DNA of 64,000 nucleotides from contig NZ_CP121473.1 of NCBI RefSeq assembly GCF_033954455.1, forward strand, positions 1,474,501 through 1,538,500, given 5' to 3'. The notes beneath the pieces were generated by a model that did not search any database, was not told the origin of the DNA, and saw only the letters and a program-made list of their open reading frames with translations. Positions 1 to 36,658 of the stretch are shown piece after piece (the first letter of the stretch is position 1; the number at the start of each line of letters is the position of its first letter). The translations under genes and the position numbers were made by a program. The stretch is from Thiorhodovibrio litoralis. GTDB lineage: Bacteria > Pseudomonadota > Gammaproteobacteria > Chromatiales > Chromatiaceae.

Positions 1-707
1 CCCGGGTGGGACTGCTGCGGTTGCATCGTGCCGGGCTCATTGTGCTGCCGCCACCGACCTGCGGCAATGGCAATGGGCGGCGCTTCGTCCCGCGCCCCGA
101 GTCCCGGCCCGAACCGATCCCAGTGTCCGTCCCGCTGCGCGCGCTCAGCGGCTTGCGCCTGGCGCGCGTTGATGATCGAAGGGCCTCGCAATTATGGAAC
201 GGCCTGATCGAGCGCTACCACTACCTCGGCTACAGTCCCCTGCCTGGTGCGCAGCTGCGCTACCTGATCCAGTGGGATGGCGGTCTGCTCGGCGCCATCG
301 GCTTTGGCGCGGCGGCCTGGAAAGTCGCTGCCCGCGACCGCTGGATTGGCTGGACGCCCGCGCAGCGCCAAGCACACCTGGGACGGGTGCTCAACAACGC
401 CCGCTTCCTCATCCTGCCCTGGGTGCAGGTCAAACACCTCGCCTCCAAGGTGCTGTCCTTGGCCGCGCGGCAAGTCAGTGTCGACTTTCCCGCCCGCTAT
501 GGCGAGCGTCTGGTGCTGCTGGAGACCTTTGTCGAGACCCCACGCTTTGCCGGGACCTGTTACCGTGCCGCCAACTGGCACGACTTGGGCGAAACCACCG
601 GGCGCGGCAAGTGCGACCGCACCCATCGGGCCGCGCTGCCGCGCAAGGCGATCTATGTCTACCCGCTGGCGGCGGACTTCCGCGCCGCCCTGGGGGTGGT
701 GGCATGA
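1..707 (+). CDS. DruA-like DUF4338 protein, 5'-truncated by window edge
   Basis: The visible part covers about the last 234 residues and is the same protein as the complete 293-residue copy at 34597-35478. It matches the DUF4338 family, best known through DruA of the Druantia anti-phage system. Recognisable stretches are the YHYLGYSPLPGAQLRYLI block and the RFLILPWVQVKHLASKVLS block with a downstream GTCYRAANW segment. Here it is an IS passenger or accessory gene: its stop overlaps the transposase start (ATGA at 704-707), so the two are probably translationally coupled. No other Druantia gene is present, so a defence role is not implied. The first complete codon is at position 3. Confidence 0.85.
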   Translation, partial: RVGLLRLHRAGLIVLPPPTCGNGNGRRFVPRPESRPEPIPVSVPLRALSGLRLARVDDRRASQLWNGLIERYHYLGYSPLPGAQLRYLIQWDGGLLGAIGFGAAAWKVAARDRWIGWTPAQRQAHLGRVLNNARFLILPWVQVKHLASKVLSLAARQVSVDFPARYGERLVLLETFVETPRFAGTCYRAANWHDLGETTGRGKCDRTHRAALPRKAIYVYPLAADFRAALGVVA

Positions 708-5387: not shown

Positions 5388-5439
5388 GGACGATGTATGG
5401 CGGTTTACCACCGTGAACTCTGCGAAAACGATTGAAAGG

Positions 5440-20927: not shown

Positions 20928-21821
20928 ATGCAAACACTGCTCGACCCCACCAACGACTATGTCTTCAAGCGCCTGTTTGTCGGGGCGCCCGAACTGCTGG
21001 TGGCGTTGATCAACGACCTGCGCCCCGATCTGCCCACGATCACCGCAGTCGAAATTCTTAACCCCAGCATTGAGCCCAGCGAACTCAGTGGCAAACACAT
21101 CATCCTCGATGTGCTCGCTCGCGACGCCGAGGGTCACTGCTACAATGTTGAGATTCAGGTGCGCCGTTACGGGGCTTGGCAAAAACGCGGGCTTTTCTAC
21201 CTCGCGCGCACCCTCGGCGGTCAGCTGCTAGCAGAGGAAGACTACCAAGAAATTCGCAGCTCGGTCGGTCTGCACCTGCTGGCTTTCGACCTCTTTACCG
21301 CCACCGAAAGCGAGCGCCAACAAGCCCTGTGGCGCTTTGAGATGCGCGATGAAACCCAGCCCCAGGTCTCGTTGGGGAACATCCTGCAAATGAACCTGAT
21401 CGAACTCAACAAGGCTGATCGTCTTGGGCTCCCACCTGGGCCGTTGCGCGCCTGGATCACCTTTTTCAAGCACTGGCAGGAGGAACTCACCATGGCCGCC
21501 GTGGCTCACGAACCCGTCCAACAAGCCATGAACCGCATCCGCGTGCTCAGCGCCGATGAAGAAGCCCGCCGTCTCGCGTTCGTGCGCGAACGCGCGCTGC
21601 ATGATGAAGTCTCTTTCCTGAATGAGGCAAAGCGTGAGGGCCATCGTGAAGGCTATCACGCCGGCATGGGCACCATGCTCAGGAAGCAAGTTGCCCTGAA
21701 GTTTGGCGCCTTACCCAACTGGGTGGACAAGCAGCTCGCATCAGCGACAGATTCACAGCTGGAAGATTGGGTGGCGGGTGTATTGACGGCAGATTCGCTG
21801 GAAGATGTGTTTCACCAATAG
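20928..21821 (+). CDS. Rpn-family PD-(D/E)XK nuclease
   Basis: 297 residues of the Rpn (recombination-promoting nuclease/putative transposase, PDDEXK_2) family. The start LLDPTNDYVFKRLFVGAPELL is diagnostic. The nuclease core is ILDVLARDAEGHCYNVEIQV with Asp and the E-x-Q pair. The C-terminal segment is helical and charged. In E. coli, Rpn proteins are DNA endonucleases that promote RecA-independent recombination; newer work links some to phage defence. Here it sits between broken higBA pieces at the edge of a recombined tandem array. No ribosome binding site is obvious before ATG 20928. Confidence 0.88.
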   Translation: MQTLLDPTNDYVFKRLFVGAPELLVALINDLRPDLPTITAVEILNPSIEPSELSGKHIILDVLARDAEGHCYNVEIQVRRYGAWQKRGLFYLARTLGGQLLAEEDYQEIRSSVGLHLLAFDLFTATESERQQALWRFEMRDETQPQVSLGNILQMNLIELNKADRLGLPPGPLRAWITFFKHWQEELTMAAVAHEPVQQAMNRIRVLSADEEARRLAFVRERALHDEVSFLNEAKREGHREGYHAGMGTMLRKQVALKFGALPNWVDKQLASATDSQLEDWVAGVLTADSLEDVFHQ

Positions 21822-21825
21822 GCCG

Positions 21826-21912
21826 AGGTCGAATCGCTGGCGCGTCTGGAGCCGGGCAAAAGGCGCTGGAGCTGCTCGTGTTGCGGAGCTTTTCGATGCT
21901 TTGACGCCCCTT
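21826..21912 (+). pseudogene. internally deleted remnant of the coiled-coil membrane protein gene
   Basis: The first part matches the early codons of the gene at 25399-25974 (ESLARLEAGQKAL equivalent) and is joined directly to its last codons (VLRSFSML then TGA). Both the fused ends and the following bases (cggaatcagcaacctga) are shared with the intact gene, so this is a deletion derivative of the same duplication unit. Confidence 0.7.
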
Positions 21913-21944
21913 GAACGGAATCAGCAACCTGAAGGGGTGTTCCG

Positions 21945-22086
21945 GAAAATTCTCAAGAATCGCCGCTTAGTGGTCAATGTCAAGGGTAACGATTACCGGC
22001 TGGTGGTGTCTGTTGCCTACTGCTATCAAGCGGTCTATGTGAAATTCATCGGTAGCCATCGGGAATACGATGCCGTAGCTGGTTGA
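21945..22086 (+). pseudogene. higB: second 3' remnant of higB
   Basis: NRRLVVNVKGNDYRLVVSVAYCYQ followed by AVYVKFIGSHREYDAVAG and a stop: the C-terminal half of a HigB toxin, homologous to the fragment at 20552-20653 but longer. No antitoxin gene follows; instead the first ATPase/nuclease gene of the array begins 43 bp later. Confidence 0.65.
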
Positions 22087-22129
22087 CTGATATGGTTTGG
22101 TGGCCGTTGCAAACTTTCAGGGAATAGCC

Positions 22130-23677
22130 ATGACGCGTCTATCGCTGCCCATTGGTATCCAGACCTTTGCCGAGATTCGCGAAGGAGGGTATTACTATGT
22201 CGACAAAACGGGCTTTGCGTTGCGGCTGTTCTCCGAAGGGAAATACTATTTTCTCTCTCGACCGCGCCGTTTTGGAAAATCGTTGTTTCTGGACACCCTG
22301 GCGGAGTTGTTGGGTGGCAACCGAGGGTTGTTCGCTGGCCTTGAGGCGGAGCATAAATGGGACTGGAGTCGGCGTTATCCTTTGATTCGGCTGAGTTTCG
22401 GCGGTGGGGTGCTGCACAGCCGCGCCAAGCTCGATGAAAAGATCGATGAATTGCTCACTGACAACCTCGAACGCCTGGGCGTAAGTGCCACGCACCGCAG
22501 CCCATCCGGGCGTTTACAGCAGTTAATCAAAAGCACCGCGACTGCTTACGGGGAAAAGGTCGTGGTCTTGGTGGACGAATACGACAAGCCGATTCTGGAT
22601 AATCTCGGGGACAAGGAAACCGCGCGGGCCATGCGCGATGGACTGCGCGATCTCTACTCCGTAATCAAGGACTCCGATGCCCATCTGCGCTTTGTCTTCC
22701 TCACCGGGGTGAGCAAATTTAGCAAGGTCAGCTTGTTCTCGGGGCTTAATAACCTCAAGGACATCACTGTCGATGAACGTTACTCGGCGCTCTGCGGCTA
22801 TACCGAAGAGGATTTGGACCAGGTCTTCGCTCCCGAGCTGGAAGGCCTGGATCGCGATCAGATTCGCGCCTGGTATAACGGCTACAACTGGACCGGCGAT
22901 GCCGTTTACAACCCCTTTGACGTCCTGCTGCTATTCGACAGCCGGCTGTTCCGGCCATGGTGGTTCGAAACTGCCACGCCAACTTTTCTCATCGATGTCT
23001 TGAAGGACAGACATACCTGGCTGCCGGCACTCGGTGACTTGCGCGCCGATAGCGAACTGCTCTCCGCTTTCGATGTCGGCCATATCAGCACAGAGGCACT
23101 GCTGTGGCAGACCGGTTATCTGACGATCGACAGCCAAGAATTTGTCTTTGGCGAATATCGCTATCGGCTGCGCTATCCCAACCGAGAGGTTTATCAAAGC
23201 CTCAACAACAGCCTGCTACGCGCTTGGACGGCCGACGGACAGACAACCCTGGCCAACAAGACCCGCCTGGGCGACCTGCTGCTGGCCAATGACTTTGACG
23301 GCTTGAGAGACCTGATCACTGCCTTTTTCGCCAGCATTCCGCACGACTGGTATCGCAACAACCCGATCGCCCAATACGAGGGCTACTACGCCAGCGTCTT
23401 CTATGCCTATTTTGCCAGCCTGGGGCTTGATCTGACGCCAGAAGAGAGCAGCAATGCTGGTAGGCTGGATTTGGCGGTCAAGTTCAATGGTCAGATTTAC
23501 CTGATCGAATTCAAGGTGGTCGAGCACAGTGGCGAAGGCGCGGCCATGGCGCAACTCAAAGAAAAAGGCTATGCCGACGCATATCGCGGCCAGGGTCAGC
23601 CGATTCATCTGGTTGGGGTGGAATTCAGCGCCGAACAGCGCGCAGTGCTGGGCTTCGAGGTCGAGACGCTGAATTGA
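22130..23677 (+). CDS. AAA-ATPase-like/PD-(D/E)XK protein, copy 1 (type A1)
   Basis: 515 residues. The AAA-ATPase-like domain (PF09820-type) has a Walker A-like RPRRFGKSLFLDTL with GKS at residues 49-51, Walker B VVLVDEYD near 145-152, and LTGVSKFSKVSLFSGLNNL near 191-209. The C-terminal PDDEXK_9-type domain has Asp447 in GRLDL and Glu460/Lys462 in LIEFKV. Variable block 1 (92-144) is type A (VLHSRAKLDEKIDELL); block 2 (about 291-398) is type 1 (LKDRHTWLPALGDLRADSEL). ATG 22130 follows AGGGA; an upstream in-frame start at 22097 is less likely. The family's function is unknown; the fold suggests an ATP-regulated nuclease. Confidence 0.9.
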   Translation: MTRLSLPIGIQTFAEIREGGYYYVDKTGFALRLFSEGKYYFLSRPRRFGKSLFLDTLAELLGGNRGLFAGLEAEHKWDWSRRYPLIRLSFGGGVLHSRAKLDEKIDELLTDNLERLGVSATHRSPSGRLQQLIKSTATAYGEKVVVLVDEYDKPILDNLGDKETARAMRDGLRDLYSVIKDSDAHLRFVFLTGVSKFSKVSLFSGLNNLKDITVDERYSALCGYTEEDLDQVFAPELEGLDRDQIRAWYNGYNWTGDAVYNPFDVLLLFDSRLFRPWWFETATPTFLIDVLKDRHTWLPALGDLRADSELLSAFDVGHISTEALLWQTGYLTIDSQEFVFGEYRYRLRYPNREVYQSLNNSLLRAWTADGQTTLANKTRLGDLLLANDFDGLRDLITAFFASIPHDWYRNNPIAQYEGYYASVFYAYFASLGLDLTPEESSNAGRLDLAVKFNGQIYLIEFKVVEHSGEGAAMAQLKEKGYADAYRGQGQPIHLVGVEFSAEQRAVLGFEVETLN

Positions 23678-23765
23678 CTTGGGGTCTGGTCCAGGGCAAA
23701 ACCTGGCTAGCCTGCTAGACTGCGACCGCAAGCAGAGATAACGGCTACTCGCCTCAGGTCCGCCT

Positions 23766-25316
23766 ATGTCGCGCAAGAAGCTTCCAATCGGTGTTCAGAC
23801 CTTCGCCAAGATTCGCGAAGACGATTACTACTATGTGGACAAGACAGGCTTTGCCCTGCGGCTGATCGAGGAAGGTAGCCATTATTTTCTGTCCCGCCCG
23901 CGCCGTTTTGGCAAGTCGTTGTTTCTGGATACCCTGGCGGAGCTTCTCAGTGGCAACCGGGAGTTGTTCACTGGCCTTGAGGCGGAGCACAAATGGAACT
24001 GGGACCGGCGTCATCCGGTGATTCGGCTGAGTTTCGGCGCCGGAGTGGCGCGCGAGCCTGCGGATTTGAAGGAGAAGATTTGGGAGCAGCTTCGTGTCAA
24101 TCAAAAGGCACTGGGCATCCGCTGCTCGGAGCCAACTGCGCAGGGCTGCTTTGCGGAGCTGATTCGGGAAGCAAAGGTCCAGGCTGGAGCGCCGGCAGTG
24201 GTCCTGGTTGACGAATACGACAAGCCGATTCTGGATAATCTGCACGATCCTGAAATCGCACGGGCCATGCGCGATGGACTGCGCGATCTCTACTCCGTGA
24301 TCAAGGATTCGGATGCGCATCTGCGCTTTGTCTTCCTCACCGGAGTGAGTAAGTTCAGTAAGGTCAGTTTGTTCTCGGGGCTCAATAATCTCAAAGACAT
24401 TACCGTCGATGCTCGCTACTCCGCGCTCTGCGGCTATACCGAGAACGATCTGGACCAGGTTTTCGCTCCGGAGCTCAAGGACCTGGATCGCGACCGGGTT
24501 CGCGCCTGGTACAATGGCTATAACTGGACCGGGGATGCGGTCTATAACCCGTTCGATGTCTTGTTATTGTTCGACAGCGGGTTGTTCCGCCCCTGGTGGT
24601 TCGAAACCGCCACGCCAAGCTTTCTGATCGACGTGCTAACCACGCGTCAGACATTTGCGCCGAAACTGGATCGACTCATTGCCAATGATCGGTTGCTGTC
24701 GGCCTTCGACGTCGACTACATCGCCACTGAAGCGCTGCTCTTCCAGACCGGTTACTTGACCATCGATAGCATGCGCGAGCGCGGTGCCACGACGGAATAC
24801 CGGCTGCGATATCCCAATTTGGAAGTGCGCGCCAGTCTTAATGGTGCTCTGCTCGATGCGCTGAGCGCGCGCAGTTCCGCAGTGGCCGAACACAGCTCTC
24901 GCCTCTACGATCTGTTGCTTGCCAATGACTTCAGCGGTCTGGAACAGCTCTTTACGGCTTTCTTCGCCAGCATCCCGCACGACTGGTATCGCAACACCCC
25001 GATCTCTCAATACGAGGGCTACTACGCCAGCGTCTTCTATGCTTACTTTGCCAGTCTTGGCCTTGATCTGACGCCGGAAGAGAGCAGCAACGCCGGGCGG
25101 CTGGATTTGGCGGTCAAGTTCAATAGCCAGGTGTATCTGATCGAATTCAAGGTGGTCGAGCACAGCGGCGAGGGAGCGGCCATGGCGCAGCTCAAGGCCA
25201 AAGGCTACGCCGACAAATATCGTGGCCGAGGCCAGCCAGTTCATCTCATCGGTGTGGAGTTCAGTGCCGAGCATCGTGCCGTGGTGGGGTTTGCCGTCGA
25301 GACCCTAGCCGGCTAA
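23766..25316 (+). CDS. AAA-ATPase-like/PD-(D/E)XK protein, copy 2 (type B2)
   Basis: 516 residues with the same motifs (GKS 49-51, VVLVDEYD, GRLDL with IEFKV). Block 1 is type B (VAREPADLKEKIWEQLRVNQ), block 2 is type 2 (LTTRQTFAPKLDRLIANDRL and RSSAVAEHSSRLYDLLLAND). Between Walker B and the next helix it reads NLHDPEIARAMRD where other copies read NLGDKETARAMRD. The N-terminal sub-block is LIEEGSHYF. It ends LAG instead of LN. The 88-bp gap from copy 1 is homologous to the gaps before copies 4 and 5. Confidence 0.9.
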   Translation: MSRKKLPIGVQTFAKIREDDYYYVDKTGFALRLIEEGSHYFLSRPRRFGKSLFLDTLAELLSGNRELFTGLEAEHKWNWDRRHPVIRLSFGAGVAREPADLKEKIWEQLRVNQKALGIRCSEPTAQGCFAELIREAKVQAGAPAVVLVDEYDKPILDNLHDPEIARAMRDGLRDLYSVIKDSDAHLRFVFLTGVSKFSKVSLFSGLNNLKDITVDARYSALCGYTENDLDQVFAPELKDLDRDRVRAWYNGYNWTGDAVYNPFDVLLLFDSGLFRPWWFETATPSFLIDVLTTRQTFAPKLDRLIANDRLLSAFDVDYIATEALLFQTGYLTIDSMRERGATTEYRLRYPNLEVRASLNGALLDALSARSSAVAEHSSRLYDLLLANDFSGLEQLFTAFFASIPHDWYRNTPISQYEGYYASVFYAYFASLGLDLTPEESSNAGRLDLAVKFNSQVYLIEFKVVEHSGEGAAMAQLKAKGYADKYRGRGQPVHLIGVEFSAEHRAVVGFAVETLAG

Positions 25317-25398
25317 GCCGAGCGGCTTCGTTGCGGTGGCTTGGCTGAACTGTTCAGCTGCTAGAATCAAAGCATGGAGTCTTCGGGAGACTGGTCAC

Positions 25399-25974
25399 AT
25401 GAATCACTGCCAGCAAATATCTTGCGCCCTCGTGCTTGCCGGCATGAGCCTGGGGGCTTATGGCGTTGACACCGCGCCGCGCATTTCAGATCGCGAGATC
25501 ATCGAGTCGCTCGCGCGTCTGGAGGCTGGGCAAAAGGCGCTGGCGGAACAGACCGATCAGCGTTTCAAGGCGATGGAAGCGATTATCGACCAGCGCTTCA
25601 AGGCGATGGAAGCGAGGATCGACCAGCGTTTTAAGACGATGGAAGCGGGCATCGACCGCCGTTTCGCGGCTGTCGATCAGCGTTTCGCGGCCATCGAAAA
25701 GCGCCTTGATGATCAGATGTTGGTCATGCTCTCGATGTTCTCCGCCTTGATTCTGCTCATTGTTGCACTCTTTGGCTATATCGTTTGGGATCGGCGCACC
25801 GCGCTGCGTCCGCTCGAAGCTCGGCTTGCGGAGCTTGAGCAGGACTTGGAGCGCGATCTGCAACTCCGCCACGAGCAGGGCTCGCTGCCAACGCGGTTGC
25901 TAAATGTGTTGCGGCAACTGGCGAGGGAGGATGAAAAGCTCGCCGGTGTGTTGCGGAGCTTTTCGATGCTTTGA
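25399..25974 (+). CDS. coiled-coil membrane protein with hendecad repeats
   Basis: 191 residues from ATG 25399 (GGGAG at 25385). An N-terminal signal-like segment (ISCALVLAGMSLGAYG) is followed by a coiled coil built of 11-residue repeats of the type DQRFKAMEAxI/DQRFAAIEKRL, about residues 45-100. One transmembrane segment (MLSMFSALILLIVALFGYIVW) and a charged helical tail follow. The topology suggests a periplasmic coiled coil anchored in the inner membrane. Its function is unknown. It lies between copies 2 and 3 of the nuclease array and a deleted remnant of it precedes copy 1, so it seems to be part of the duplicating unit. Confidence 0.75.
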   Translation: MNHCQQISCALVLAGMSLGAYGVDTAPRISDREIIESLARLEAGQKALAEQTDQRFKAMEAIIDQRFKAMEARIDQRFKTMEAGIDRRFAAVDQRFAAIEKRLDDQMLVMLSMFSALILLIVALFGYIVWDRRTALRPLEARLAELEQDLERDLQLRHEQGSLPTRLLNVLRQLAREDEKLAGVLRSFSML

Positions 25975-27280
25975 CGCGCCTTTTACGGAATCAGCAACCT
26001 GACACGGCGTTCGGCAAGAATCTGATGTTGCGCAAAAAGCTTCCGGTTGGTGTCCAGACTTTCGCCAAGATTCGCGGAGATAATTATTACTATGTCGACA
26101 AGACAGGCTTCGCCTTGCGGCTGATCAAGGAAGGCAGCCACTATTTTCTCTCCCGTCCGCGCCGCTTTGGCAAGTCGCTGTTTCTGGATACCCTGGCGGA
26201 GCTCTTCAGTGGCAACCGGGAATTGTTCGCTGGCCTTGAGGCGGAGCACAAATGGAACTGGAGTCGGCGTCATCCGGTGATTCGGCTGAGTTTCGGCGGT
26301 GGGGTGCTGCACAGCCGCGCCAAGCTCGATGAAAAGATCGATGAATTGCTCACTGACAACCTCGAACGCCTTGGCGTGAGCGCCACGCACCGCAGTCCAT
26401 CTGGCCGTCTCCAGCAGTTAATCAAGAGCACTGCGACTGCTTACGGGGAAAAGGTTGTGGTCTTGGTGGACGAATACGACAAGCCCATTCTGGATAACCT
26501 CGGGGACAAGGAAACCGCGCGGGCCATGCGCGATGGGCTGCGCGATCTGTATTCGGTCATCAAGGACTCGGATGCCCACCTGCGCTTTGTCTTCCTGACC
26601 GGAGTGAGCAAATTCAGCAAGGTGAGCTTGTTTTCCGGGTTGAATAATCTGAAGGATATCACCGTCGATGCGCGCTACTCTGCGCTCTGCGGTTATACCG
26701 AAGAGGATCTGGATGGCGTCTTCGCACCCGAGCTGGCAGGTTTGGACCGCGAACAGATTCGCGCTTGGTATAACGGCTACAACTGGACCGGCGATGCCGT
26801 CTACAACCCCTTTGACGTGCTGCTGCTATTCGACAGCCGGCAATTTCGCTCCTGGTGGTTCGAGACCGCCACGCCGACATTCTTGATCGAGGTTCTGGCC
26901 GGGCGGCACACGTTTGCACCCAGTTTGGAGCGCCTGCTGACGGACGAACAGCTTCTTTCGACCTTCGATGTCGACTACATCGCCACGGAGGCTTTGCTGT
27001 TCCAGACCGGCTATTTGACGATCGATCACATGCGCCAGCACGGAGCGGTGACTCAGTATGTCTTGCGCTACCCAAATCTGGAAGTTCGCTCCAGTCTGAA
27101 CAATGCCTTGCTGCATCAGCTGCGCGGTCGCGCGTCAGACACGCCAAGCCAGGCCGCACGCCTCTACGACCTGCTCGAAGCGAATGATTTCAGTGGCTTG
27201 AAAGACCTCTTCACCGCCTTTTTCGGCAGCATTCCGCACGACTGGTATCGAAACAATCCCATCGCCCAATACGAGGGCTG

Positions 27281-27678
27281 ATATGTTTTGACCTGTCAAT
27301 GTTTGGTAGTAACTATTGTTTAACCACCTCTTCTTCTTTGTCTTTTTTCGAAAACGTTGTTCTCGGGCCGGTGATGGCAAACACCTTGGCTCAGGGCACC
27401 CAGCGGCAGACTGCGACGGTGGATCATGCTGATATACGTGGATTGGGTACCACCGGACTTCACTGCGTCGCGGAGCTGGCCTTTCTCTAAGAGCAGGGAT
27501 CGGCACGTGGGATGCCCATGATGGGATTCTCCCGCGCACCACCGGTATAGCCCAAACAAGGGTTCTCCACACCGGCCGCGGATGCCCTGAATCAAGGTGT
27601 CTGTTGGGTTCTCCATGGTTGAATCGATTGGGGTTGCGTCAGCGGGTTGTCAGCATTGGCTCAACATGCGGCCACTGA
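27281..27678 (-). ncRNA. probable bridge/seek RNA region of the IS1111-group element
   Basis: About 400 bp between the transposase stop and the left end of the element contain no credible gene. In IS1111-group elements this region encodes the guide RNA that pairs with target and donor DNA. Exact RNA boundaries and guide loops could not be resolved by eye. The motif GTTCTCCA occurs twice here and once more near the other end of the element. Confidence 0.5.
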
Positions 27679-28890
27679 TCAGACCGCTTGGGCGTTCACT
27701 TGAGGCATCTCCTGGCGCACGATGTCCCAGAGAAAACCGGCCAGCTCCCGGGCAATGGCCACGCACACCAGCTTGGTGTTTTTGCCGGCACCGGTGAGCG
27801 TGCGGTAGCGCCCGCACAGGCGCACCTGCGCCTTCCAGGCGATGCGTCTGGCCCCGGCTGAGGCGTTCACGGCCTTGCCTCGGAGATGCTTGGTCTGGCG
27901 TGCCGGGAAGCGATAGCTCCAGGCCGATTCGATCAACATGCGCCGGGCGTGGCTGTTGCCGGTGAGCGTAATCGCCCCTTGGCGCCGCCGTCCGCCACTG
28001 GAGTGCTCGCTGGGGACCAGTCCGAGGAAGGCCATCAGTTGGCGCGGGGAGTCGAAACGACTGATATCGCCCAGTTCAGCGAGCAGCACGATCGCGGCGA
28101 GCTTGTCGATACCGCGCAGCGCCACCAGGGAGTCAACCACGGGGGCAAGTGACCACTCCGGCAATGCGCGCATGAGCTGATCGGTGAGCTGAGCGACGCG
28201 CTCACCGGCGGCCCGCTCAGCGTCGATGTAGTTCTGTAGCACCACCTGCTGCCAAGGATCGGCCATTTTCAGTCCGGCCAGCCAGTTCTCATGCGCCGCA
28301 CCCCAGCGCGTCTTGCCGGTGGGCCAGTGGTGACCGTGACGCAGCAAAAAGGCGTTGAGCTGCTGACGGGCTTTGCGTTCCTGGGCTTTAATATCATCGC
28401 GCGCGCGGCTGAGATCGCGCATGCGCTCCTGCTCTTGGTCGGGAACCCAAACCGCGGTGAGATCGCCGCTGCGCAGCAGTCGCGCGAGCTTCAGCGCATC
28501 GCGCCGGTCGGTCTTGATGCGCTCGGCGGCTTTCTTGGGAATCAGCGATGGGGCAACGACTTGGCAATCATGGCCGCTGGCGAGAAGCTGGCGATAGAGT
28601 CCATACCCGCAGGGACCGGCTTCGTAGCAGAACAACAGCACCGCTCCATCATAGGCTTCGCTCAGACGGGCGATGAGTTGCTCGATCTTCTTGGGCTTGT
28701 TAGCAATCTCGCCACGATAAATCGGCTCCTGACGTCCCGGCTCAGCCACCGCCACGGCGATGGTGTCTTTGTGCACATCCAGGCCAATATAGGCGCCGTG
28801 CTTGTGTTCCGGCTGGTTACTCCCGTGCAGCAAGGCGGATAGGGACGATGCGCTCTCGATGCGATCGGTTGCTGGGTTAAACTGCTTCAT
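27679..28890 (-). CDS. IS110-family transposase (DEDD recombinase)
   Basis: 403 residues. The N-terminal RuvC-like DEDD domain shows Asp in AYIGLDVHKDTIAVAV, Glu in FCYEAGPCGYGLYRQL and two Asp in IKTDRRDALKLARLLRSGD. The C-terminal Transposase_20 domain shows LVALRGIDKLAAIVLLAELG, then FLGLVPSEHSSGGRRRQGAI with the conserved serine region and TGNSHARRMLIESAW. It catalyses RNA-guided insertion and excision of the element. The ATG at 28890 follows AGGAGAGC. The gene appears intact. Confidence 0.95.
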   Translation of the reverse strand: MKQFNPATDRIESASSLSALLHGSNQPEHKHGAYIGLDVHKDTIAVAVAEPGRQEPIYRGEIANKPKKIEQLIARLSEAYDGAVLLFCYEAGPCGYGLYRQLLASGHDCQVVAPSLIPKKAAERIKTDRRDALKLARLLRSGDLTAVWVPDQEQERMRDLSRARDDIKAQERKARQQLNAFLLRHGHHWPTGKTRWGAAHENWLAGLKMADPWQQVVLQNYIDAERAAGERVAQLTDQLMRALPEWSLAPVVDSLVALRGIDKLAAIVLLAELGDISRFDSPRQLMAFLGLVPSEHSSGGRRRQGAITLTGNSHARRMLIESAWSYRFPARQTKHLRGKAVNASAGARRIAWKAQVRLCGRYRTLTGAGKNTKLVCVAIARELAGFLWDIVRQEMPQVNAQAV

Positions 28891-28930
28891 GACCTGCTCT
28901 CCTCAAGGTGGCTCTGTGTCGGTGGTTCTC

Positions 28931-28963
28931 CATCCTCAACATAACCTACATGCGTTGAGGATG
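28931..28963. repeat. 10-bp inverted repeat near the 5' end of the IS1111-group element
   Basis: CATCCTCAAC at 28931-28940 and GTTGAGGATG at 28954-28963 are exact reverse complements around a 13-base loop. They lie between the transposase start and the terminal inverted repeat, so the hairpin may control transposase expression or mark the end. Confidence 0.6.
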
Positions 28964-29367
28964 GGCAGGTCAAAACATCATGTCTACTACGCCAGCGTTT
29001 TCTATGCCTATTTCGCCAGCCTGGGATTTGACCTGACGCCAGAGGAGAGCAGCAACGCTGGGCGGCTGGATTTGACTGTAAAGTTCAATGGTCAGATTTA
29101 CCTGATCGAATTCAAGGTGGTCGAGCACAGCGGCGAGGGAGCGGCCATGGCGCAGCTCAAGGCCAAAGGCTACGCCGACAAATATCGTGGCCAAGGCCAG
29201 CCGATTCATCTGGTTGGGGTGGAATTCAGCGCCGAACAGCGCGCAGTGCTGGGCTTCGAGGTCGAGACTCTGAATTGACGTGGGGTCTTGCCCAGGGAAA
29301 AACCCAGCCAGCCTGCTAGACTGCGACCGTATCCAGTAGAGAATGGCCACTCGTACCAGGTCCGCCT

Positions 29368-30915
29368 ATGTCGCGCAAAAAGCTTCCAATCGGTGTTCAG
29401 AACTTCGCCGAGATTCGGGAAGGCGGGTATTACTATGTCGACAAATCGGGCTTTGCCTTGCGGCTGGTCTCCGAAGGGAAATACTATTTCCTTTCCCGTC
29501 CGCGCCGTTTTGGCAAGTCGTTGTTTCTGGATACTCTGGCGGAGCTTCTCAGTGGCAACCGGGAATTGTTCGCTGGCCTTGAGGCGGAGCACAAATGGAA
29601 CTGGGACCGGCGCCATCCGGTGATTCGGCTGAGTTTCGGCGGTGGGGTGGCGCGCGAGCCTGCGGATCTGAAGGAGAAGATTTGGGAGCAGTTGCGCGTC
29701 AATCAAAAGGCGCTGGGTATCCGTTGCTCTGAGCCAACTGCGCAGGGCTGCTTTGCCGAGCTGATTCGGGAAGCCAAGGTCCAGGCTGGAGCGCCGGCGG
29801 TGGTGTTGGTGGACGAATACGACAAGCCCATTCTCGATAATCTCGGGGACAAGGAAACCGCGCGGGCCATGCGCGATGGACTGCGCGATCTGTATTCAGT
29901 CATTAAGGACTCGGACGCCCATCTGCGTTTTGTCTTCCTCACCGGGGTGAGCAAATTTAGCAAGGTCAGTCTGTTCTCGGGGCTCAACAACCTCAAAGAC
30001 ATCACCGTCGACGAGCGTTACTCCGCGCTGTGCGGTTATACCGAAGAGGATTTGGACCAGGTCTTTGCTCCCGAGCTGGAAGGCCTGGATCGCGATCAGA
30101 TTCGCGCCTGGTATAACGGCTACAACTGGACCGGCGATGCCGTCTACAACCCCTTTGACGTGCTGCTGCTGTTCGACAGCCGGCTGTTCCGCCCCTGGTG
30201 GTTCGAAACCGCCACGCCAACGTTTCTCATCGATGTCTTGAAGGACAGGCACACCTGGCTGCCGGCACTGGGTGACTTGCGCGCCGATAGCGAACTGCTC
30301 TCCGCTTTCGATGTTGGGCATATCAGCACCGAGGCACTGCTGTGGCAGACCGGTTATCTGACGATCGACAGCCAAGAATTTGTCTTTGGCGAATATCGCT
30401 ATCGGCTGCGCTATCCCAACCGCGAGGTTTACCAAAGCCTCAACAACAGCCTGCTGCGCGCCTGGACCGCCGACGGGCAGACAACCCTGGCGAACAAGAC
30501 CCGCCTGGGCGACCTGCTGCTGGCTAATGACTTTGACGGCTTGAAAGACCTGATCACTGCCTTTTTCGCCAGCATTCCGCACGACTGGTATCGCAACAAC
30601 CCGATTTCCCAATACGAGGGCTACTACGCCAGCGTCTTCTATGCCTATTTTGCCAGCCTGGGGCTTGATCTGACGCCGGAAGAGAGCAGCAACGCCGGGC
30701 GGTTGGATTTGGCTGTAAAGTTCAATGACCAGATTTACCTGATCGAATTCAAGGTTATCGAGCACAGCGGCGAGGGAGCGGCCATGGCGCAGCTCAAGGC
30801 CAAAGGCTACGCCGACAAATATCGTGGCCAAGGCCAGCCGATTCATCTGGTTGGGGTGGAATTCAGCGCCGAACAGCGCGCAGTGCTGGGCTTCGAGGTC
30901 GAGACTCTGAATTGA
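29368..30915 (+). CDS. AAA-ATPase-like/PD-(D/E)XK protein, copy 4 (type B1)
   Basis: 515 residues, all motifs present (GKS 49-51, VVLVDEYD, GRLDL, IEFKV). Block 1 is type B as in copy 2, block 2 is type 1 as in copy 1. The N-terminal sub-block is LVSEGKYYF. The 5' half and the upstream gap appear identical by eye to those of copy 5 (29121-29834 against 30758-31471), so the two share a very recent duplication or conversion. Confidence 0.9.
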   Translation: MSRKKLPIGVQNFAEIREGGYYYVDKSGFALRLVSEGKYYFLSRPRRFGKSLFLDTLAELLSGNRELFAGLEAEHKWNWDRRHPVIRLSFGGGVAREPADLKEKIWEQLRVNQKALGIRCSEPTAQGCFAELIREAKVQAGAPAVVLVDEYDKPILDNLGDKETARAMRDGLRDLYSVIKDSDAHLRFVFLTGVSKFSKVSLFSGLNNLKDITVDERYSALCGYTEEDLDQVFAPELEGLDRDQIRAWYNGYNWTGDAVYNPFDVLLLFDSRLFRPWWFETATPTFLIDVLKDRHTWLPALGDLRADSELLSAFDVGHISTEALLWQTGYLTIDSQEFVFGEYRYRLRYPNREVYQSLNNSLLRAWTADGQTTLANKTRLGDLLLANDFDGLKDLITAFFASIPHDWYRNNPISQYEGYYASVFYAYFASLGLDLTPEESSNAGRLDLAVKFNDQIYLIEFKVIEHSGEGAAMAQLKAKGYADKYRGQGQPIHLVGVEFSAEQRAVLGFEVETLN

Positions 30916-31004
30916 CGTGGGGTCTTGCCCAGGGAAAAACCCAGCCAGCCTGCTAGACTGCGACCGTATCCAGTAGAGAATGGCCACTCGTACCAGGTCC
31001 GCCT

Positions 31005-32552
31005 ATGTCGCGCAAAAAGCTTCCAATCGGTGTTCAGAACTTCGCCGAGATTCGGGAAGGCGGGTATTACTATGTCGACAAATCGGGCTTTGCCTTGCGG
31101 CTGGTCTCCGAAGGGAAATACTATTTCCTTTCCCGTCCGCGCCGTTTTGGCAAGTCGTTGTTTCTGGATACTCTGGCGGAGCTTCTCAGTGGCAACCGGG
31201 AATTGTTCGCTGGCCTTGAGGCGGAGCACAAATGGAACTGGGACCGGCGCCATCCGGTGATTCGGCTGAGTTTCGGCGGTGGGGTGGCGCGCGAGCCTGC
31301 GGATCTGAAGGAGAAGATTTGGGAGCAGTTGCGCGTCAATCAAAAGGCGCTGGGTATCCGTTGCTCTGAGCCAACTGCGCAGGGCTGCTTTGCCGAGCTG
31401 ATTCGGGAAGCCAAGGTCCAGGCTGGAGCGCCGGCGGTGGTGTTGGTGGACGAATACGACAAGCCCATTCTGGATAACCTCGGGGACAAGGAAACCGCGC
31501 GGGCCATGCGCGATGGGCTGCGCGATCTGTACTCCGTTATCAAGGACTCTGACGCTCATCTGCGCTTTGTTTTTCTGACCGGAGTGAGCAAATTCAGCAA
31601 GGTGAGCTTGTTTTCCGGGTTGAATAATCTGAAGGATATCACCGTCGATGCGCGCTACTCTGCGCTCTGCGGTTATACCGAAGAGGATCTGGATGGCGTC
31701 TTCGCTCCCGAGCTGGCAGGTTTGGACCGCGAACAGATTCGCGCCTGGTATAACGGTTATAACTGGACCGGCGATGCCGTTTACAACCCTTTTGACGTGC
31801 TGCTGCTATTCGACAGCCGGCAATTTCGCTCCTGGTGGTTCGAGACTGCAACGCCGACTTTCTTGATCGATGTGCTGGCCGGTAGGCATACGTTCGTACC
31901 CAGTCTGGAGCGCCTGCTGACGGATGAACAGCTTCTTTCGACCTTCGATGTCGACTACATCGCCACCGAGGCTTTGCTGTTCCAGACCGGCTATTTGACG
32001 ATTGATCACATGCGCCAGCACGGAGCTGTGACTCAGTATGTCTTGCGCTACCCAAATCTGGAAGTTCGCTCCAGTCTGAACAATGCCTTGCTGCATCAGC
32101 TGCGCGGTCGTGCGTCAGACACGCCAAGTCAGGCCGCACGCCTCTACGACCTGCTCGAAGCGAATGATTTCAGAGGTTTGAAAGACCTCTTCACCGCCTT
32201 TTTCGCCAGCATTCCGCACGACTGGTATCGCAACAATCCCATCGCCCAATATGAGGGCTACTACGCCAGCGTCTTCTATGCTTATTTCGCCAGCCTGGGA
32301 TTTGACCTGACGCCAGAGGAGAGCAGCAACGCTGGTCGGCTGGATTTGGCCGTCAAGTTCAATAACCAGATTTACTTAATCGAATTCAAGGTGATTGAGC
32401 ACAGCGGCGAAGGCGCGGCCATGGCGCAGCTCGAGGCGAAAGGTTATGCCGACAAATATCTTGGTCAAGGCCAGCCGATTCATCTGATTGGGGTGGAATT
32501 CAGCGCAGAACAACGCGCAGTGGTGGGGTTCGAGGTCGAGACGCTGAATTAA
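31005..32552 (+). CDS. AAA-ATPase-like/PD-(D/E)XK protein, copy 5 (type B3)
   Basis: 515 residues, intact. The 5' half equals copy 4; from just after Walker B the sequence switches to follow copy 3 (type 3 central block, GRHTFVPSLERLLTDEQL). The switch occurs in a stretch conserved in all copies, as expected for homologous recombination between neighbours. Nuclease motif residues are conserved. One substitution (GLEQ-type position reads GLKD) also follows copy 3. Confidence 0.9.
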   Translation: MSRKKLPIGVQNFAEIREGGYYYVDKSGFALRLVSEGKYYFLSRPRRFGKSLFLDTLAELLSGNRELFAGLEAEHKWNWDRRHPVIRLSFGGGVAREPADLKEKIWEQLRVNQKALGIRCSEPTAQGCFAELIREAKVQAGAPAVVLVDEYDKPILDNLGDKETARAMRDGLRDLYSVIKDSDAHLRFVFLTGVSKFSKVSLFSGLNNLKDITVDARYSALCGYTEEDLDGVFAPELAGLDREQIRAWYNGYNWTGDAVYNPFDVLLLFDSRQFRSWWFETATPTFLIDVLAGRHTFVPSLERLLTDEQLLSTFDVDYIATEALLFQTGYLTIDHMRQHGAVTQYVLRYPNLEVRSSLNNALLHQLRGRASDTPSQAARLYDLLEANDFRGLKDLFTAFFASIPHDWYRNNPIAQYEGYYASVFYAYFASLGFDLTPEESSNAGRLDLAVKFNNQIYLIEFKVIEHSGEGAAMAQLEAKGYADKYLGQGQPIHLIGVEFSAEQRAVVGFEVETLN

Positions 32553-33213
32553 CGCCTCGCGGGCTTTGCCTTGCTGGACTTTCCTGTCGATTGCGACCAC
32601 ATCCAGAGAAGATTTCAGAACATATTCACTCGCCACAGGTCCGAAGATGTCGCGCAAGAAGCTTCCAATTGGTGTTCAGACCTTCGCCAAGATGCGCGAA
32701 GACGATTACTACTATGTCGACAAGACCGGCTTCGCCCTGCGTCTGATCGACGAAGGTAGCCACTATTTTCTCTCCCGTCCGCGCCGTTTTGGCAAGTCGC
32801 TGTTTCTCGATACCTTGGCGGAATTGTTCAGTGGCAACAGGGAATTGTTCAACGGGCTCGTGGCGGAAAACCAATGGGACTGGAGTCGCCGCCATCCGGT
32901 AATTCGGCTGAGTTTCGGCGGTGGGGTGCTGCATAGCCGCGCCAAGCTCGAGGAAAAGATAGACGAATTGCTCACTGACAACCTCGAACGCCTGGGCGTG
33001 AGCGCCACGCACCGCAGTCCATCCGGGCGTCTCCAGCAGTTAATCAAGAGCGCCGGGACTGCTTGCGGGGAAAAGGTCGTGGTCCTGGTGGACGAATACG
33101 ACAAGCCCATTCTGGATAATCTCGGGGACAAAGAAACCGCGCGGGCCATGCGCGATGGGCTGCGCGATCTGTATTCAGTCATTAAGGACTCTGATGCTCA
33201 TCTGCGCTTTGTT

Positions 33214-33222
33214 TTTCTGACC
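33214..33222. repeat. target site duplication, left copy
   Basis: TTTCTGACC directly before the IS4-family element, repeated at 35584-35592. Nine bases is the duplication length of Tn5/IS50- and IS10-type elements. Confidence 0.95.
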
Positions 33223-33229
33223 CATACCA

Positions 33230-34600
33230 TTACCCATAACTATCCCTGACGCTGCGGTAAGCCTCCAGCGCCATGACAAAATCGGGGATGCGCTGCAACC
33301 CAATCCAGAGCGTCTTCGGTCCCGGGAACCCATCGGATTTGCGGTTGAGAAAGCCGCCCAGGGAGGCGACCATGCGCACCATGGTATCGAGCGAGGGCGG
33401 CTGCTCGGGTGGCGCTTGTTTCTGGGTGACCAGATAGACCGCCTTCCATTCCTCCTCGGCAAAGACCGCATCGCAAGGCAACTCCGGGCACTCGCGCCCG
33501 AGCATGGTCAGGTACAGCACCCGCCACGCGATGATCATGTACAAAGCGAGCGCCGGCTCCAGGCGCTCGCGCGTCTCGAGCTGCAGCTCCTCGATGCGGC
33601 AGCCACTTTTTAAGATCCGGAAAAAAATCTCCACTTGCCACCTGCAAAGATACCAGGAGAGCGTCTCGATGGCCTCCTCGGCGCTCTGCACCGCCAGATT
33701 GGTCAGCAACAGCCAGTTGAGTGGCTCCTCGCCGGCGGGTGGATTGACCTCGGTGGCGAGCAAGGCCGTGACCGTGACATCGGGCAAGGTGCGATCCGGG
33801 CGCCAGGGTGCCTTCAGGGTCACGCGCACCACCTTGATCTCCTGCTTGACCTGGCGTGCTTTGGCCCCCTTGGTGGCGGGACGCTCGAAGGTGATCTCGG
33901 TGAGCACCGCAGCGGCGTCCAGGGCCTCATTGAGCTTTCTGCCATCGGCCAAGCAGCGGTCGCGATGCTGCACCCGTACCAGCCAATCGGCGCTGTTCTC
34001 GGGGATGGGCGCTTCAACAAACAGGTCGTAGATGTCGCCCTCGCGATCGGCAACATAGGTCAAGCGCGTGTCGCTCAGTTCCTCGGCCAGCGCATTGACG
34101 CGCGCGTAGCCATCGACCCAGCGCACGCTTTCTTTCTCCTCCAGTGGGCGGCGCGAGTCTTTGTCCTGGCCCAGGCTACCGGGCTCGCGCACAAAAGTGT
34201 GCAAATCCAGCAGCCCCAGCGCGAGGCGCTCGGGCGTGACCGCCAAGGTGGGATGGATGTACATCCCATAGCGGCTCTCAAAGTTCAGTGGCCCAAGACC
34301 GACAATGCCTTTTTTGGTTGTATAGTCCAGCTCGCTGGTATCTTGGATACACAGCACCCGCGGATGCTCGCGCAGACGTTCTTCGGTACAAGCAAAATGG
34401 GGTGCGAGGATCTGCTCGGCGGTGACCGTGGGATGATCGAAAAAGCGATAGGCGGCCCGGGTCTCATACCAACCGTTGCAAGCCCCGGGAATACTTTGTG
34501 TCGGCTTGGCGCCGAGGGTTTCAAGCACCTGTTGGGCGCGATGATTCAGGCGCTTGTCGCCCAGAGAGATGTCCTGCAGTTCAGAGGCCAGCGCGATCAT
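33230..34600 (-). CDS. IS4-family (Tn5-like) DDE transposase, copy 2
   Basis: 456 residues, complete, with the same catalytic motifs as copy 1 (CIQDTSELDY, YVADREGDIYD, WYLCRWQVEIFFRILKSG). Only a few substitutions are seen against copy 1 (for example AAVLTEI for PPVLTEI-type, SAEEAIETL for SAQEAIETL). The start codon overlaps the DruA-like stop (34597-34600). The stop lies in the terminal inverted repeat. Nothing suggests inactivation. Confidence 0.95.
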   Translation of the reverse strand: MIALASELQDISLGDKRLNHRAQQVLETLGAKPTQSIPGACNGWYETRAAYRFFDHPTVTAEQILAPHFACTEERLREHPRVLCIQDTSELDYTTKKGIVGLGPLNFESRYGMYIHPTLAVTPERLALGLLDLHTFVREPGSLGQDKDSRRPLEEKESVRWVDGYARVNALAEELSDTRLTYVADREGDIYDLFVEAPIPENSADWLVRVQHRDRCLADGRKLNEALDAAAVLTEITFERPATKGAKARQVKQEIKVVRVTLKAPWRPDRTLPDVTVTALLATEVNPPAGEEPLNWLLLTNLAVQSAEEAIETLSWYLCRWQVEIFFRILKSGCRIEELQLETRERLEPALALYMIIAWRVLYLTMLGRECPELPCDAVFAEEEWKAVYLVTQKQAPPEQPPSLDTMVRMVASLGGFLNRKSDGFPGPKTLWIGLQRIPDFVMALEAYRSVRDSYG

Positions 34601-35478
34601 GCCACCACCCCCAGGGCGGCGCGGAAGTCCGCCGCCAGCGGGTAGACATAGATCGCCTTGCGCGGCAGCGCGGCCCGATGGGTGCGGTCGCACTTGCCGC
34701 GCCCGGTGGTTTCGCCCAAGTCGTGCCAGTTGGCGGCACGGTAACAGGTCCCGGCAAAGCGTGGGGTCTCGACAAAGGTCTCCAGCAGCACCAGACGCTC
34801 GCCATAGCGGGCGGGAAAGTCGACACTGACTTGCCGCGCGGCCAAGGACAGCACCTTGGAGGCGAGGTGTTTGACCTGCACCCAGGGCAGGATGAGGAAG
34901 CGGGCGTTGTTGAGCACCCGTCCCAGGTGTGCTTGGCGCTGCGCGGGCGTCCAGCCAATCCAGCGGTCGCGGGCAGCGACTTTCCAGGCCGCCGCGCCAA
35001 AGCCGATGGCGCCGAGCAGACCGCCATCCCACTGGATCAGGTAGCGCAGCTGCGCACCAGGCAGGGGACTGTAGCCGAGGTAGTGGTAGCGCTCGATCAG
35101 GCCGTTCCATAATTGCGAGGCCCTTCGATCATCAACGCGCGCCAGGCGCAAGCCGCTGAGCGCGCGCAGCGGGACGGACACTGGGATCGGTTCGGGCCGG
35201 GACTCGGGGCGCGGGACGAAGCGCCGCCCATTGCCATTGCCGCAGGTCGGTGGCGGCAGCACAATGAGCCCGGCACGATGCAACCGCAGCAGTCCCACCC
35301 GGGCACTCATGAGCTTGGGGCGGCCTTGGATATCGGTCCACTCCAGCGCGCGGCACACCCGCCGAGCGATCTCCGCGCGCAGCGGCGGCTGCGCCAGCGC
35401 GATCTCCTGGCGAATGCGCGCTAAGTCGGTCTCGTTGAAAGGGCGCCCACATAAACGGCTTGGAATCGCTTGGTCCAT
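34597..35478 (-). CDS. DruA-like DUF4338 protein encoded by the IS
   Basis: 293 residues, complete. It starts MDQAIPSRLCGRPFNETDLA at ATG 35478, preceded by GGGACGGGAG. An N-terminal winged-helix-like region (IRQEIALAQPPLRAEIARRV, then QGRPKLMSARVGLLRLHRAG) is followed by the DUF4338 core: LIERYHYLGYSPLPGAQLRY, RFLILPWVQVKHLASKVLS, GTCYRAANWHDLGETTGRGK. DruA is one component of Druantia defence loci; here the homologue is translationally coupled to a transposase and so is more likely a transposition accessory or regulator. That role is inference. Confidence 0.88.
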   Translation of the reverse strand: MDQAIPSRLCGRPFNETDLARIRQEIALAQPPLRAEIARRVCRALEWTDIQGRPKLMSARVGLLRLHRAGLIVLPPPTCGNGNGRRFVPRPESRPEPIPVSVPLRALSGLRLARVDDRRASQLWNGLIERYHYLGYSPLPGAQLRYLIQWDGGLLGAIGFGAAAWKVAARDRWIGWTPAQRQAHLGRVLNNARFLILPWVQVKHLASKVLSLAARQVSVDFPARYGERLVLLETFVETPRFAGTCYRAANWHDLGETTGRGKCDRTHRAALPRKAIYVYPLAADFRAALGVVA

Positions 35479-35583
35479 GGTCTCCCGTCCCCTTGCTGAA
35501 GATGAAAGGGCATCTCAGCAGAACTCGGGAGCTGTGTCCAGCCCCGGACGACGCTGGGGCGGGGAGATATGGGTAATGGTATG

Positions 35584-35592
35584 TTTCTGACC
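35584..35592. repeat. target site duplication, right copy
   Basis: TTTCTGACC immediately after the IS4-family element, matching 33214-33222. Confidence 0.95.
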
Positions 35593-36658
35593 GGGGTAAG
35601 CAAATTCAGCAAGGTGAGCTTGTTTTCGGGGTTGAACAACCTGAAGGACATCACAGTCGACTCGCGTTACTCCGCGCTCTGTGGCTACACCGAAAAGGAT
35701 ATGGACGAGGTCTTCTGCCCCGAGTTGGAAGGCCTGGATCGGGAGCAGATTCGTGCCTGGTATAACGGCTACAACTGGACTGGTGATGCCGTTTATAACC
35801 CCTTCGACGTGTTGCTGCTCTTTGACAGCCGGTTGTTCCGACCCTGGTGGTTCGAAACTGCCACGCCAAGTTTTTTGATCGACGTGCTGACCGCCCGTCA
35901 GACATTTGCGCCGAAACTCGGCCGGCTGATTGCCAATGACCGGCTGCTGTCGGCCTTTGACGTCGACTACATCGCCACTGAAGCGCTGCTCTTTCAGACC
36001 GGTTACTTGACCATCGATAGCATGCGCGAACGCGGTGCATCGACGGAATACCGGCTGCGATATCCCAATTTGGAAGTGCGCGCCAGTCTCAACGGTGCCC
36101 TGCTCGACGCGCTGAGCGCGCGCAGTTCCGCAGTGGCTGAACAAAGCTCTCGTCTCTACGATCTGTTGCTTGCCAATGACTTCAGCGGTCTGGAACAGCT
36201 CTTCACCGCCTTTTTCGCCAGCATCCCGCACGACTGGTATCGCAACAACCCGATCTCCCAATACGAGGGTTACTACGCCAGCGTCTTCTATGCCTATTTT
36301 GCCAGCCTGGGGCTTGATCTGACGCCAGAAGAGAGCAGCAATGCTGGTAGGCTGGATTTGGCGGTCAAGTTCAATGACCAGATTTACCTGATCGAATTCA
36401 AGGTCATCGAGCACAGTGGCGAGGGCGCGGCCATGGCGCAGGTTAAGGCCAAGGGTTATGCCGATAAATACCGTAGCCAGGGCCAGTTGACTCATCTGAT
36501 CGGGGTGGAGTTTAGCGCCGAACAACGCGCTGTGGTGGACTTCGAGGTGGAAACCCTGGACTAACGCGGCTGGTGCGTTGCCGGCTCGGAAGTTTCGTCC
36601 CTTTGGGTTCAGGTCAAGACGGTGGCCGGATGCCTGAACTCCGGGCAACTCCGGGATG

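Follow-up and report, generated by a model that had tools for sequence, protein, structure and literature searches.

Six tandem DUF1703 genes in Thiorhodovibrio litoralis carry all pairings of two and three alternative sequence blocks

We wanted to understand why one gene occurs six times in series in Thiorhodovibrio litoralis, with each copy carrying a different pairing of alternative sequence blocks, and what such a set of genes might do. The six copies share one orientation and occupy positions 22130-36564 (+) of the window, by which we mean the whole stretch of 64,000 nucleotides that was analysed (contig NZ_CP121473.1, positions 1,474,501 to 1,538,500, of assembly GCF_033954455.1), within a 5.47-Mb single-contig genome. 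Their products of ~515 amino acids (aa) are DUF1703 proteins, i.e. they join the domains PF09820 (AAA-ATPase_like) and PF08011 (PDDEXK_9). When copies 1 and 2 were tested against Pfam, PF09820 scored 218.8 and 210.9 bits (cut-off, 26.1) and PF08011 scored 77.1 and 76.3 bits (cut-off, 25.5), with E-values for copy 1 of 8.4e-65 and 1.2e-21, respectively. The Walker A motif RPRRFGKS and the Walker B motif DEYD are present in all four intact copies, and the nuclease residues D447, E460, K462, and Q475 (D...E-x-K) are invariant across 68 aligned sequences. A prior reading of the bare DNA letters (the sequence-only reading) had described six tandem ATPase/nuclease genes; the number of copies and the nature of the domains stand, but only copies 1, 2, 4, and 5 are intact, copies 3 and 6 being disrupted by insertion sequences.

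Mosaic structure of the six copies

In gene order, the pairs of block 1 (class A or B) and block 2 (class 1, 2, or 3) are A1, B2, A3, B1, B3, and A2, each combination occurring once, as the sequence-only reading had listed them. When the copies were compared in sliding windows of 60 bp, discrete block switches were seen: copies of class A and class B share 30-55% nucleotide identity at nucleotides ~270-430 of the gene, and classes 1, 2, and 3 share 34-83% at nucleotides ~840-1190, whereas copies of the same class are 83-100% identical in those windows. Trees built on five segments of the gene agree with these assignments, the block-1 segment separating copies 1, 3, and 6 (A) from copies 2, 4, and 5 (B) with an ultrafast bootstrap of 100 and the block-2 segment grouping copies 1 and 4 (class 1), 2 and 6 (class 2), and 3 and 5 (class 3). 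Further, the pairwise homoplasy index (PHI) of the array was 0.177 compared with a permuted mean of 0.491, and none of 1000 permutations gave a value as low. The N-terminal sub-block that had been read as variable proved to be a third exchange module, at residues ~13-38.

Synonymous sites tell the same story. In ten pairs, the proportion of synonymous differences (pS) in block 1 was 0.78-0.89 between classes and 0.24-0.27 within a class, and in block 2 it was 0.66-0.84 between classes and 0.15-0.23 within a class (again ten pairs); block 1 of copies 4 and 5 is identical. Because synonymous sites agree with the block classes, the mosaic holds independently of protein constraint. The sharing is confined to the blocks: copies 2 and 6 have block 2 alone in common (pS 0.23; elsewhere 0.38, 0.78, 0.68, and 0.49), and copies 2 and 4 share block 1 (pS 0.27) compared with a pS of 0.60 in the middle segment. 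The sequence between the blocks, which had been called near-invariant, is so at the level of protein but not of DNA, where the pS of the middle segment was 0.31-0.70 in nine of the ten pairs and 0.17 in the tenth. We conclude that recombination among the six copies is certain, and the permutations, the synonymous sites, and the trees together bear out the modular reassortment first read from the letters. Accelerated amino acid change without transfer is ruled out for the array by the between-class pS (0.66-0.89, compared with 0.15-0.27 within classes); for dispersed pairs the matter is not settled in every case, an example being L060 and L059, in which block-1 pS (0.51) equals that of the flanks. 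Relaxed constraint in the blocks is ruled out by the low proportion of nonsynonymous differences (pN) within classes. In all six orthologous pairs between this species and the sister species described below, block 2 had a pN of 0.00-0.01 compared with a pS of 0.04-0.12; at the level of sequence, each module class is seen to be held by purifying selection.

For simplicity, each copy is referred to by a module code, in which K or S stands for an N-terminal EGKYYF or EGSHYF and is followed by the class of block 1 and that of block 2. Block coordinates correspond to residues 92-144 (block 1) and 291-398 (block 2), as delimited in the sequence-only reading, block classes were assigned by sliding identity and segment trees, and all copies and blocks lie on the + strand. 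Copy 1 (K-A-1; 22130..23677; intact, 515 aa) has block 1 at 22403..22561 and block 2 at 23000..23323; intact copy 2 (S-B-2; 23766..25316), which is 97.2% identical in nucleotides to its sister-species counterpart, has them at 24039..24197 and 24636..24959, and both copies were recognised by PF09820 and PF08011. Copy 3 (S-A-3) consists of a 5' part (26025..27279, with block 1 at 26298..26456 and block 2 at 26895..27218) and a 3' part with the nuclease end (28984..29290), which were joined by blastn colinearity and are separated by an IS110-family insertion on the - strand (27280..28983; transposase ORF, i.e. open reading frame, 27679-28890; NF033542, E 4.4e-82). Copy 4 (K-B-1; 29368..30915; intact), recognised by its ORF and by sliding identity, has its blocks at 29641..29799 and 30238..30561, and copy 5 (K-B-3; 31005..32552; intact), recognised by its ORF and by cross-species comparison, has them at 31278..31436 and 31875..32198. 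Copy 6 (S-A-2) was likewise pieced together by blastn colinearity from a 5' part (32647..33222, with block 1 at 32920..33078) and a 3' part (35584..36564, with block 2 at 35887..36210), between which lies a Tn5-type element on the - strand (33223..35583), recognised by the DNA identity of its 626-aa ORF (33230-35110) to a Tn5-type transposase ORF. This transposase ORF occurs twice in the window, at 194-2074 (+) and 33230-35110 (-), the two being 99.5% identical in DNA, and inside copy 6 a second ORF (34597-35478) overlaps it on the same strand. Four of the five gaps between copies are spacers of 77-94 bp, and the fifth, between copies 2 and 3, is filled by a gene (25336-25974) for a coiled-coil-like product of 212 residues. 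The latter gene is present in both species with different numbers of an RFKAME..DQ unit, its product having 190 residues in the sister species.

Conservation of the array in a sister species

The sequence-only reading had suggested that the locus itself diversifies its genes. A sister species, the genome of which is also a single contig, has six intact copies flanked by the same neighbours, with the pairs A1, B2, A3, B1, B3, and A2 in the same order; this second array rules out an assembly chimera. DNA identity between orthologous copies of the two species is 91-97%, and since the species split all 12 positions (six copies and two blocks) have kept their class. The N-terminal module of copy 5 has switched, being K here and S in the sister species (S-B-3). 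The idea of a working diversifier at this locus is thus not upheld.

Recombination has nevertheless left recent traces. In the sister array, as in this one, none of 1000 permutations gave a PHI as low as that observed, nor did any of 500 when the twelve copies of both species were analysed jointly. In the window, an exact tract of 714 bp (29121-29834 = 30758-31471, +) runs from the last part of one copy across the spacer to include the N terminus and whole block 1 of its successor. In the sister species, an exact tract of 1008 bp joins copies 1 and 4, extending from a point shortly before block 2 across the spacer and on into the following copy, and copies 3 and 5 are linked by a third tract, of 347 bp. 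The 714-bp and 1008-bp tracts each include one whole block, break in the middle of the chassis (i.e. the conserved sequence around the modules), and connect two copies of one class. In the chassis, shorter exact matches of 60-131 bp also link copies of different classes. Recombination is therefore active in both species, yet the set of pairs is stable. We take the array to be a fixed repertoire because the sister species holds the same pairs in the same order and, as far as the two genomes tell, to be old and stable rather than an active shuffler. We note that a third genome of the genus had no six-copy array among the matches listed, and that in its two-copy locus nothing but the gene itself and a short stretch of insertion sequence matches the window.

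Exchange of modules elsewhere in the family

In the T. litoralis genome, the PF09820 cut-off is passed at 14 places, of which six are the array copies. Decayed DUF1703 remnants, of which one has lost its middle and the other contains a stop, also occur at contig positions 1389339-1390149 and 1720603-1720764. We surveyed 146 genomes of the same family, 38 of which had a match at E 1e-150 or better, copy numbers per genome being lower bounds because no more than 10 candidates were scored in each, and took 80 stretches from a subset of these matches. After removal of exact duplicates, of ORFs of <400 residues or spanning <=480 profile positions, and of the broken copies 3 and 6, 117 full-length sequences were compared in pairs; counts outside the array leave out pairs with both members in it. 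Of the 62 such pairs with a chassis at least 90% identical, both blocks were the same (>=80% identical) in 23, only block 1 was the same in 16, only block 2 in 8, and neither (both <70%) in 12, with three intermediate. Among classes with at least two members outside the array, 15 of 21 block-1 classes were found with at least two block-2 classes and 19 of 26 block-2 classes with at least two block-1 classes, and one further set of four combinations was found outside the array, spread over two genomes.

The module borders emerged from a scan that assumed none. In 73 pairs not both in the array, with a median identity of at least 90% over windows of 30 residues, a window was counted as switched when it was <65% identical. 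Switching was seen in 12-37% of the pairs at window starts 11, 81-121, 281-301, and 341-361 (peaking at 23% at start 11, 37% at 101-111, 30% at 291, and 34% at 361), compared with 0-8% at the other starts and 0-1% at starts 21-71, 131-271, and 401-481. The switching regions thus correspond to residues ~11-40, 97-138, 287-310, and 352-392, the first peak being the N-terminal sub-block of the sequence-only reading; we refer to the N-terminal module as V0, to block 1 as V1, and to the two parts of block 2 (V2) as V2a (287-310) and V2b (352-392). Coupling was assessed in 53 pairs chosen on four control segments, one of which lies between V2a and V2b and so works against detecting V2 switches. V2a and V2b were both the same in 45 pairs, both different in 7, and discordant in 1 (phi coefficient 0.93), whereas V0, V1, and V2 were uncoupled (phi -0.23 to 0.17). 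Because V1 and V2 are uncoupled, the data suggest that they form no single co-adapted interface.

Block exchange also extends to another phylum. In the Chlorobiaceae, 27 copies from four genomes comprise two main block-1 types with several block-2 types, and a near-identical block 2 stands next to three different block 1 sequences in two genomes. With classes defined by single linkage, six sets of four combinations were found, and PHI was lower than in any of 500 permutations for 24 of the 27 copies, three copies with divergent segments having been left out of this test and of the histograms. One Chlorobiaceae locus (L170) is itself a tandem DUF1703 array with reassorted blocks, its five copies starting at 647, 2458, 4231, 6367, and 8147. 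The four-combination analysis kept 46 of 51 matches (five partial or stop-containing ones were dropped) and found no such set in Leucothrix (15 copies) or in another genome (4 copies), which argues against universal reuse. By record titles, DUF1703 proteins are present in many bacterial phyla, often in many copies. We would place diversification in the family as a whole, on an evolutionary timescale, rather than at this locus.

Candidate roles and known systems

An AlphaFold model computed from 68 sequences had a predicted local distance difference test score (pLDDT) of 90 and a predicted template modelling score (pTM) of 0.88. In this model, residues 4-360 match the archaeal ATPases 2qen (Z 15.6 over 280 residues; root mean square deviation, 3.9) and 2fna (Z 15.4) and, less strongly, a wheat resistosome (Z 13.1), CED-4 (Z 12.6), and Avs3 (Z 11.3), and the nuclease part (residues 362-515) resembles the corresponding region of CinB (7et0; Z 10.6 over 135 residues). 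Foldseek alone gave a single match at E <0.001, to Apaf-1. The predicted fold is that of a STAND/NB-ARC-like ATPase with a C-terminal nuclease. V1 would be a pair of helices (98-116 and 125-140) that follows strand 85-89 and precedes the Walker B strand (144-149), and V2 would comprise helices 285-302, a winged part, and helices 352-401. Folded alone, domain 274-404 (pLDDT 79, pTM 0.64) had weak structural matches throughout (50 rows, Z <=4.3), 39 of which we take, by title, to be DNA-binding regulators and 11 to be ribosomal, ALBA, or homing-endonuclease chains; the winged-helix part of the STAND core is read from these matches.

The explanation to which we give about an even chance is that the array is a fixed repertoire of STAND-type ATPase/nucleases with exchangeable recognition modules, spread by gene conversion and probably directed against mobile elements. 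The copies share a catalytic chassis and differ in V0 (~13-38), V1, and V2, and homologous recombination, mainly gene conversion, transfers modules in their entirety from one copy or locus to another, the breakpoints lying in the conserved chassis. Because purifying selection holds each module class, the copies most likely differ in the triggers or partners to which they respond. The modules would set recognition, and once a trigger is bound the ATPase would free the nuclease or bring about its assembly, and so activate it; the target would probably be invading DNA such as that of phages or plasmids. The most likely setting is defence, given the analogy with STAND proteins, a table that places PF09820 in defence proteins (PMC10952713, available in part), and uncontrolled hints from gene neighbourhoods. 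A broader form of this explanation, which we put forward tentatively and consider rather doubtful, is that DUF1703 proteins are widespread compact NLR-like nucleases, the three independently inherited modules of which (V0, V1, and V2a with V2b) circulate between paralogues and species and provide combinatorial recognition, the array being a 2 x 3 set preserved by selection since before the species split.

Several results weigh against these proposals. First, six different pairs arise in 36 of the 90 arrangements (40%) that the class counts allow and in 1.5% of uniform draws; on recomputation, both figures match those of the sequence-only reading. The array counts once here because both species inherited it by descent. 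The completeness of the pairs is not significant and is no evidence of design. Further, with two of the six copies broken, this genome can do without the full set, and same-class tracts are expected from homology alone, so the preserved pairs are no proof of selection. Second, the pairs in the surveys share genes: among 23 non-overlapping pairs, at least one module was switched in 10 and both V2 parts in none, the V2 coupling comes from a small number of events (7 of 53 gene-sharing pairs), and a nearest-neighbour check, from which five loci taken twice had been dropped, flagged 21 of 78 sequences as discordant and 57 as not. Third, no repeat family of the STAND sensor kind was found in copies 1 and 2 (Pfam, E 0.001), the 515-residue protein ending in the nuclease domain without a C-terminal sensor superstructure, and no solved relative was found by sequence at E 0.1. 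Finally, PADLOC (2023 library) gave no convincing family for the four intact copies (best E 0.014, Cas4_II), and the array lies in no recognisable defence island, its neighbours having only partial PADLOC matches.

The alternative that survives best, although we consider it improbable, is neutral concerted evolution, in which conversion would homogenise the chassis and the blocks would be islands of heterology that stop conversion, so that diversity persists without use. Conversion is plainly active, the recent whole-block tracts join copies of the same class, and both the non-significant completeness and the two broken copies fit this account. It has more difficulty with the switching of the same narrow regions at unlinked loci of other genomes and in a second phylum, in genes that are otherwise ~90% or more identical, with the strong purifying selection on blocks within a class, and with the reuse of classes with new partners (15 of 21 and 19 of 26), which needs block transfer and not survival alone. 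Less probable still is that the modules read DNA sequence as HsdS target-recognition domains do, the array then being a set of nucleases with combinatorial DNA specificity. The resemblance of the block-2 domain to mostly DNA-binding regulators would suit such a role, weak as it is (best Z 4.3), but the main role of the winged helix in NB-ARC proteins is to serve the nucleotide switch, no methylase was found among the scanned neighbours, and Pfam detected no HsdS target-recognition domain in copies 1 and 2. The 2 x 3 = 6 design is also that of SpnD39III, as far as the available part of PMC4190663 describes it. We find it very unlikely that the modules serve to prevent co-assembly of paralogues, each copy being homomeric only: there are many near-identical copies in one genome and the ATPase fold resembles ring-forming proteins, but the lack of coupling between V1 and V2 (phi -0.20 and -0.23) disallows a joint interface unless each module is an interface of its own. 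An active phase-variable or diversity-generating locus that reshuffles blocks within a strain is scarcely credible, the direct repeats and recent tracts notwithstanding, given that all copies lie in one orientation and that the sister species has all six pairs in the same order.

An Rpn-family PD-(D/E)XK gene (20928..21821, +; PF12784, E 1.2e-29; TIGR01784, E 5e-23) lies upstream of copy 1, as does its counterpart in the sister array, and on Hydrogenophilus plasmid pTH1, too, a DUF1703 gene has an Rpn gene as its neighbour. The other nearby genes that could be identified are mainly flagellar, tetratricopeptide repeat (TPR), sulfotransferase, and glycosyltransferase genes. PADLOC was run on ten neighbouring ORFs, and its strongest match there was a partial one to mad2 (E 9.6e-11, 89 of 776 residues), in an ORF (5062-7392) that overlaps a glycosyltransferase ORF; the next was to PDC-M51A (E 4.9e-7), in the radical SAM protein. 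Two flagellin genes, 8433-9635 (-) and 12688-13890 (+), flank a TPR-sulfotransferase gene and are 99.1% identical in DNA; the opposed pair is, to judge by this identity, a recent or converted inverted duplicate. No RNA element reached the gathering score in 21800-36800, and promoter and terminator scans gave results near chance (2 found compared with 4.5 expected, and 16 compared with 14). Matches were found in 60 plasmid records. Six plasmid regions, hand-picked from the top matches without a control, held Cas1 with an Rpn gene and Piwi; Cas1 with Cas2 and PglW; a methyltransferase and HNH pair; ThiF and patatin genes; and, in two regions, toxin-antitoxin genes. A Calditerrivibrio plasmid pair was too divergent for the switch test. 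Matches in 33 phage records were all <60% identical (<=38.6% in the 20 listed), and those in 24 viral contigs were <=37% identical.

With a map of exchanged and constant parts, what DUF1703 proteins recognise becomes a question that a swap experiment can address. For this, the four intact copies and the six of the sister species together provide a factorial design of two V1 classes and three V2 classes on nearly the same chassis, in which the effect of each module and their interaction are directly measurable.

DUF1703 was defined as a family in 2007 (PMC1913061), and the available part of that paper gives the same two domains, the RPRRFGKS variant of Walker A, the DEYD Walker B, and the PD-(D/E)XK residues; it defines the family and describes no exchange modules. 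In 2019, 25 DUF1703 paralogues with an average identity of 39% and intragenic recombination detected by RDP4 were reported in Cardinium cCpun, along with a PHI signal in DUF1703 paralogues of a midge Rickettsia (PMC6387759). Recombination among DUF1703 paralogues as such is thus already published, and Cardinium likewise has many paralogues recombining within genes; that account, in its available part, is without module borders, module independence, a tandem factorial array, or conserved order. In the literature searched, which included few subscription journals, we found no account of discrete, independently switching DUF1703 modules, nor of a tandem factorial DUF1703 set or its conservation between species.

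Among systems outside the family, RADAR RdrA, PARIS1, and Old-tin defence proteins share the ATPase domain family according to the table cited above (PMC10952713), whereas PADLOC gave no convincing match for the four intact copies described here. Rpn nucleases are variable PD-(D/E)XK proteins with anti-phage activity, which, as the available text of PMC10327210 describes, vary by 4-residue repeats in a C-terminal antitoxin part, and the Rpn neighbour of the array belongs to PF12784, a Pfam family other than PF08011. The predicted ATPase core is folded like that of STAND/NB-ARC proteins (CED-4, resistosomes, and Avs), but in the array proteins the nuclease is C-terminal and the variable parts would lie inside the ATPase core and beside the winged helix. 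For the 2 x 3 design, the nearest functional analogue is SpnD39III, in which two N-terminal and three C-terminal hsdS variants give six combinations by recombination (PMC4190663, in its available part). That system acts by inversion in one expressed gene, with truncated donors, inverted repeats, and a Cre-type recombinase, whereas here six genes stand side by side in a fixed order.

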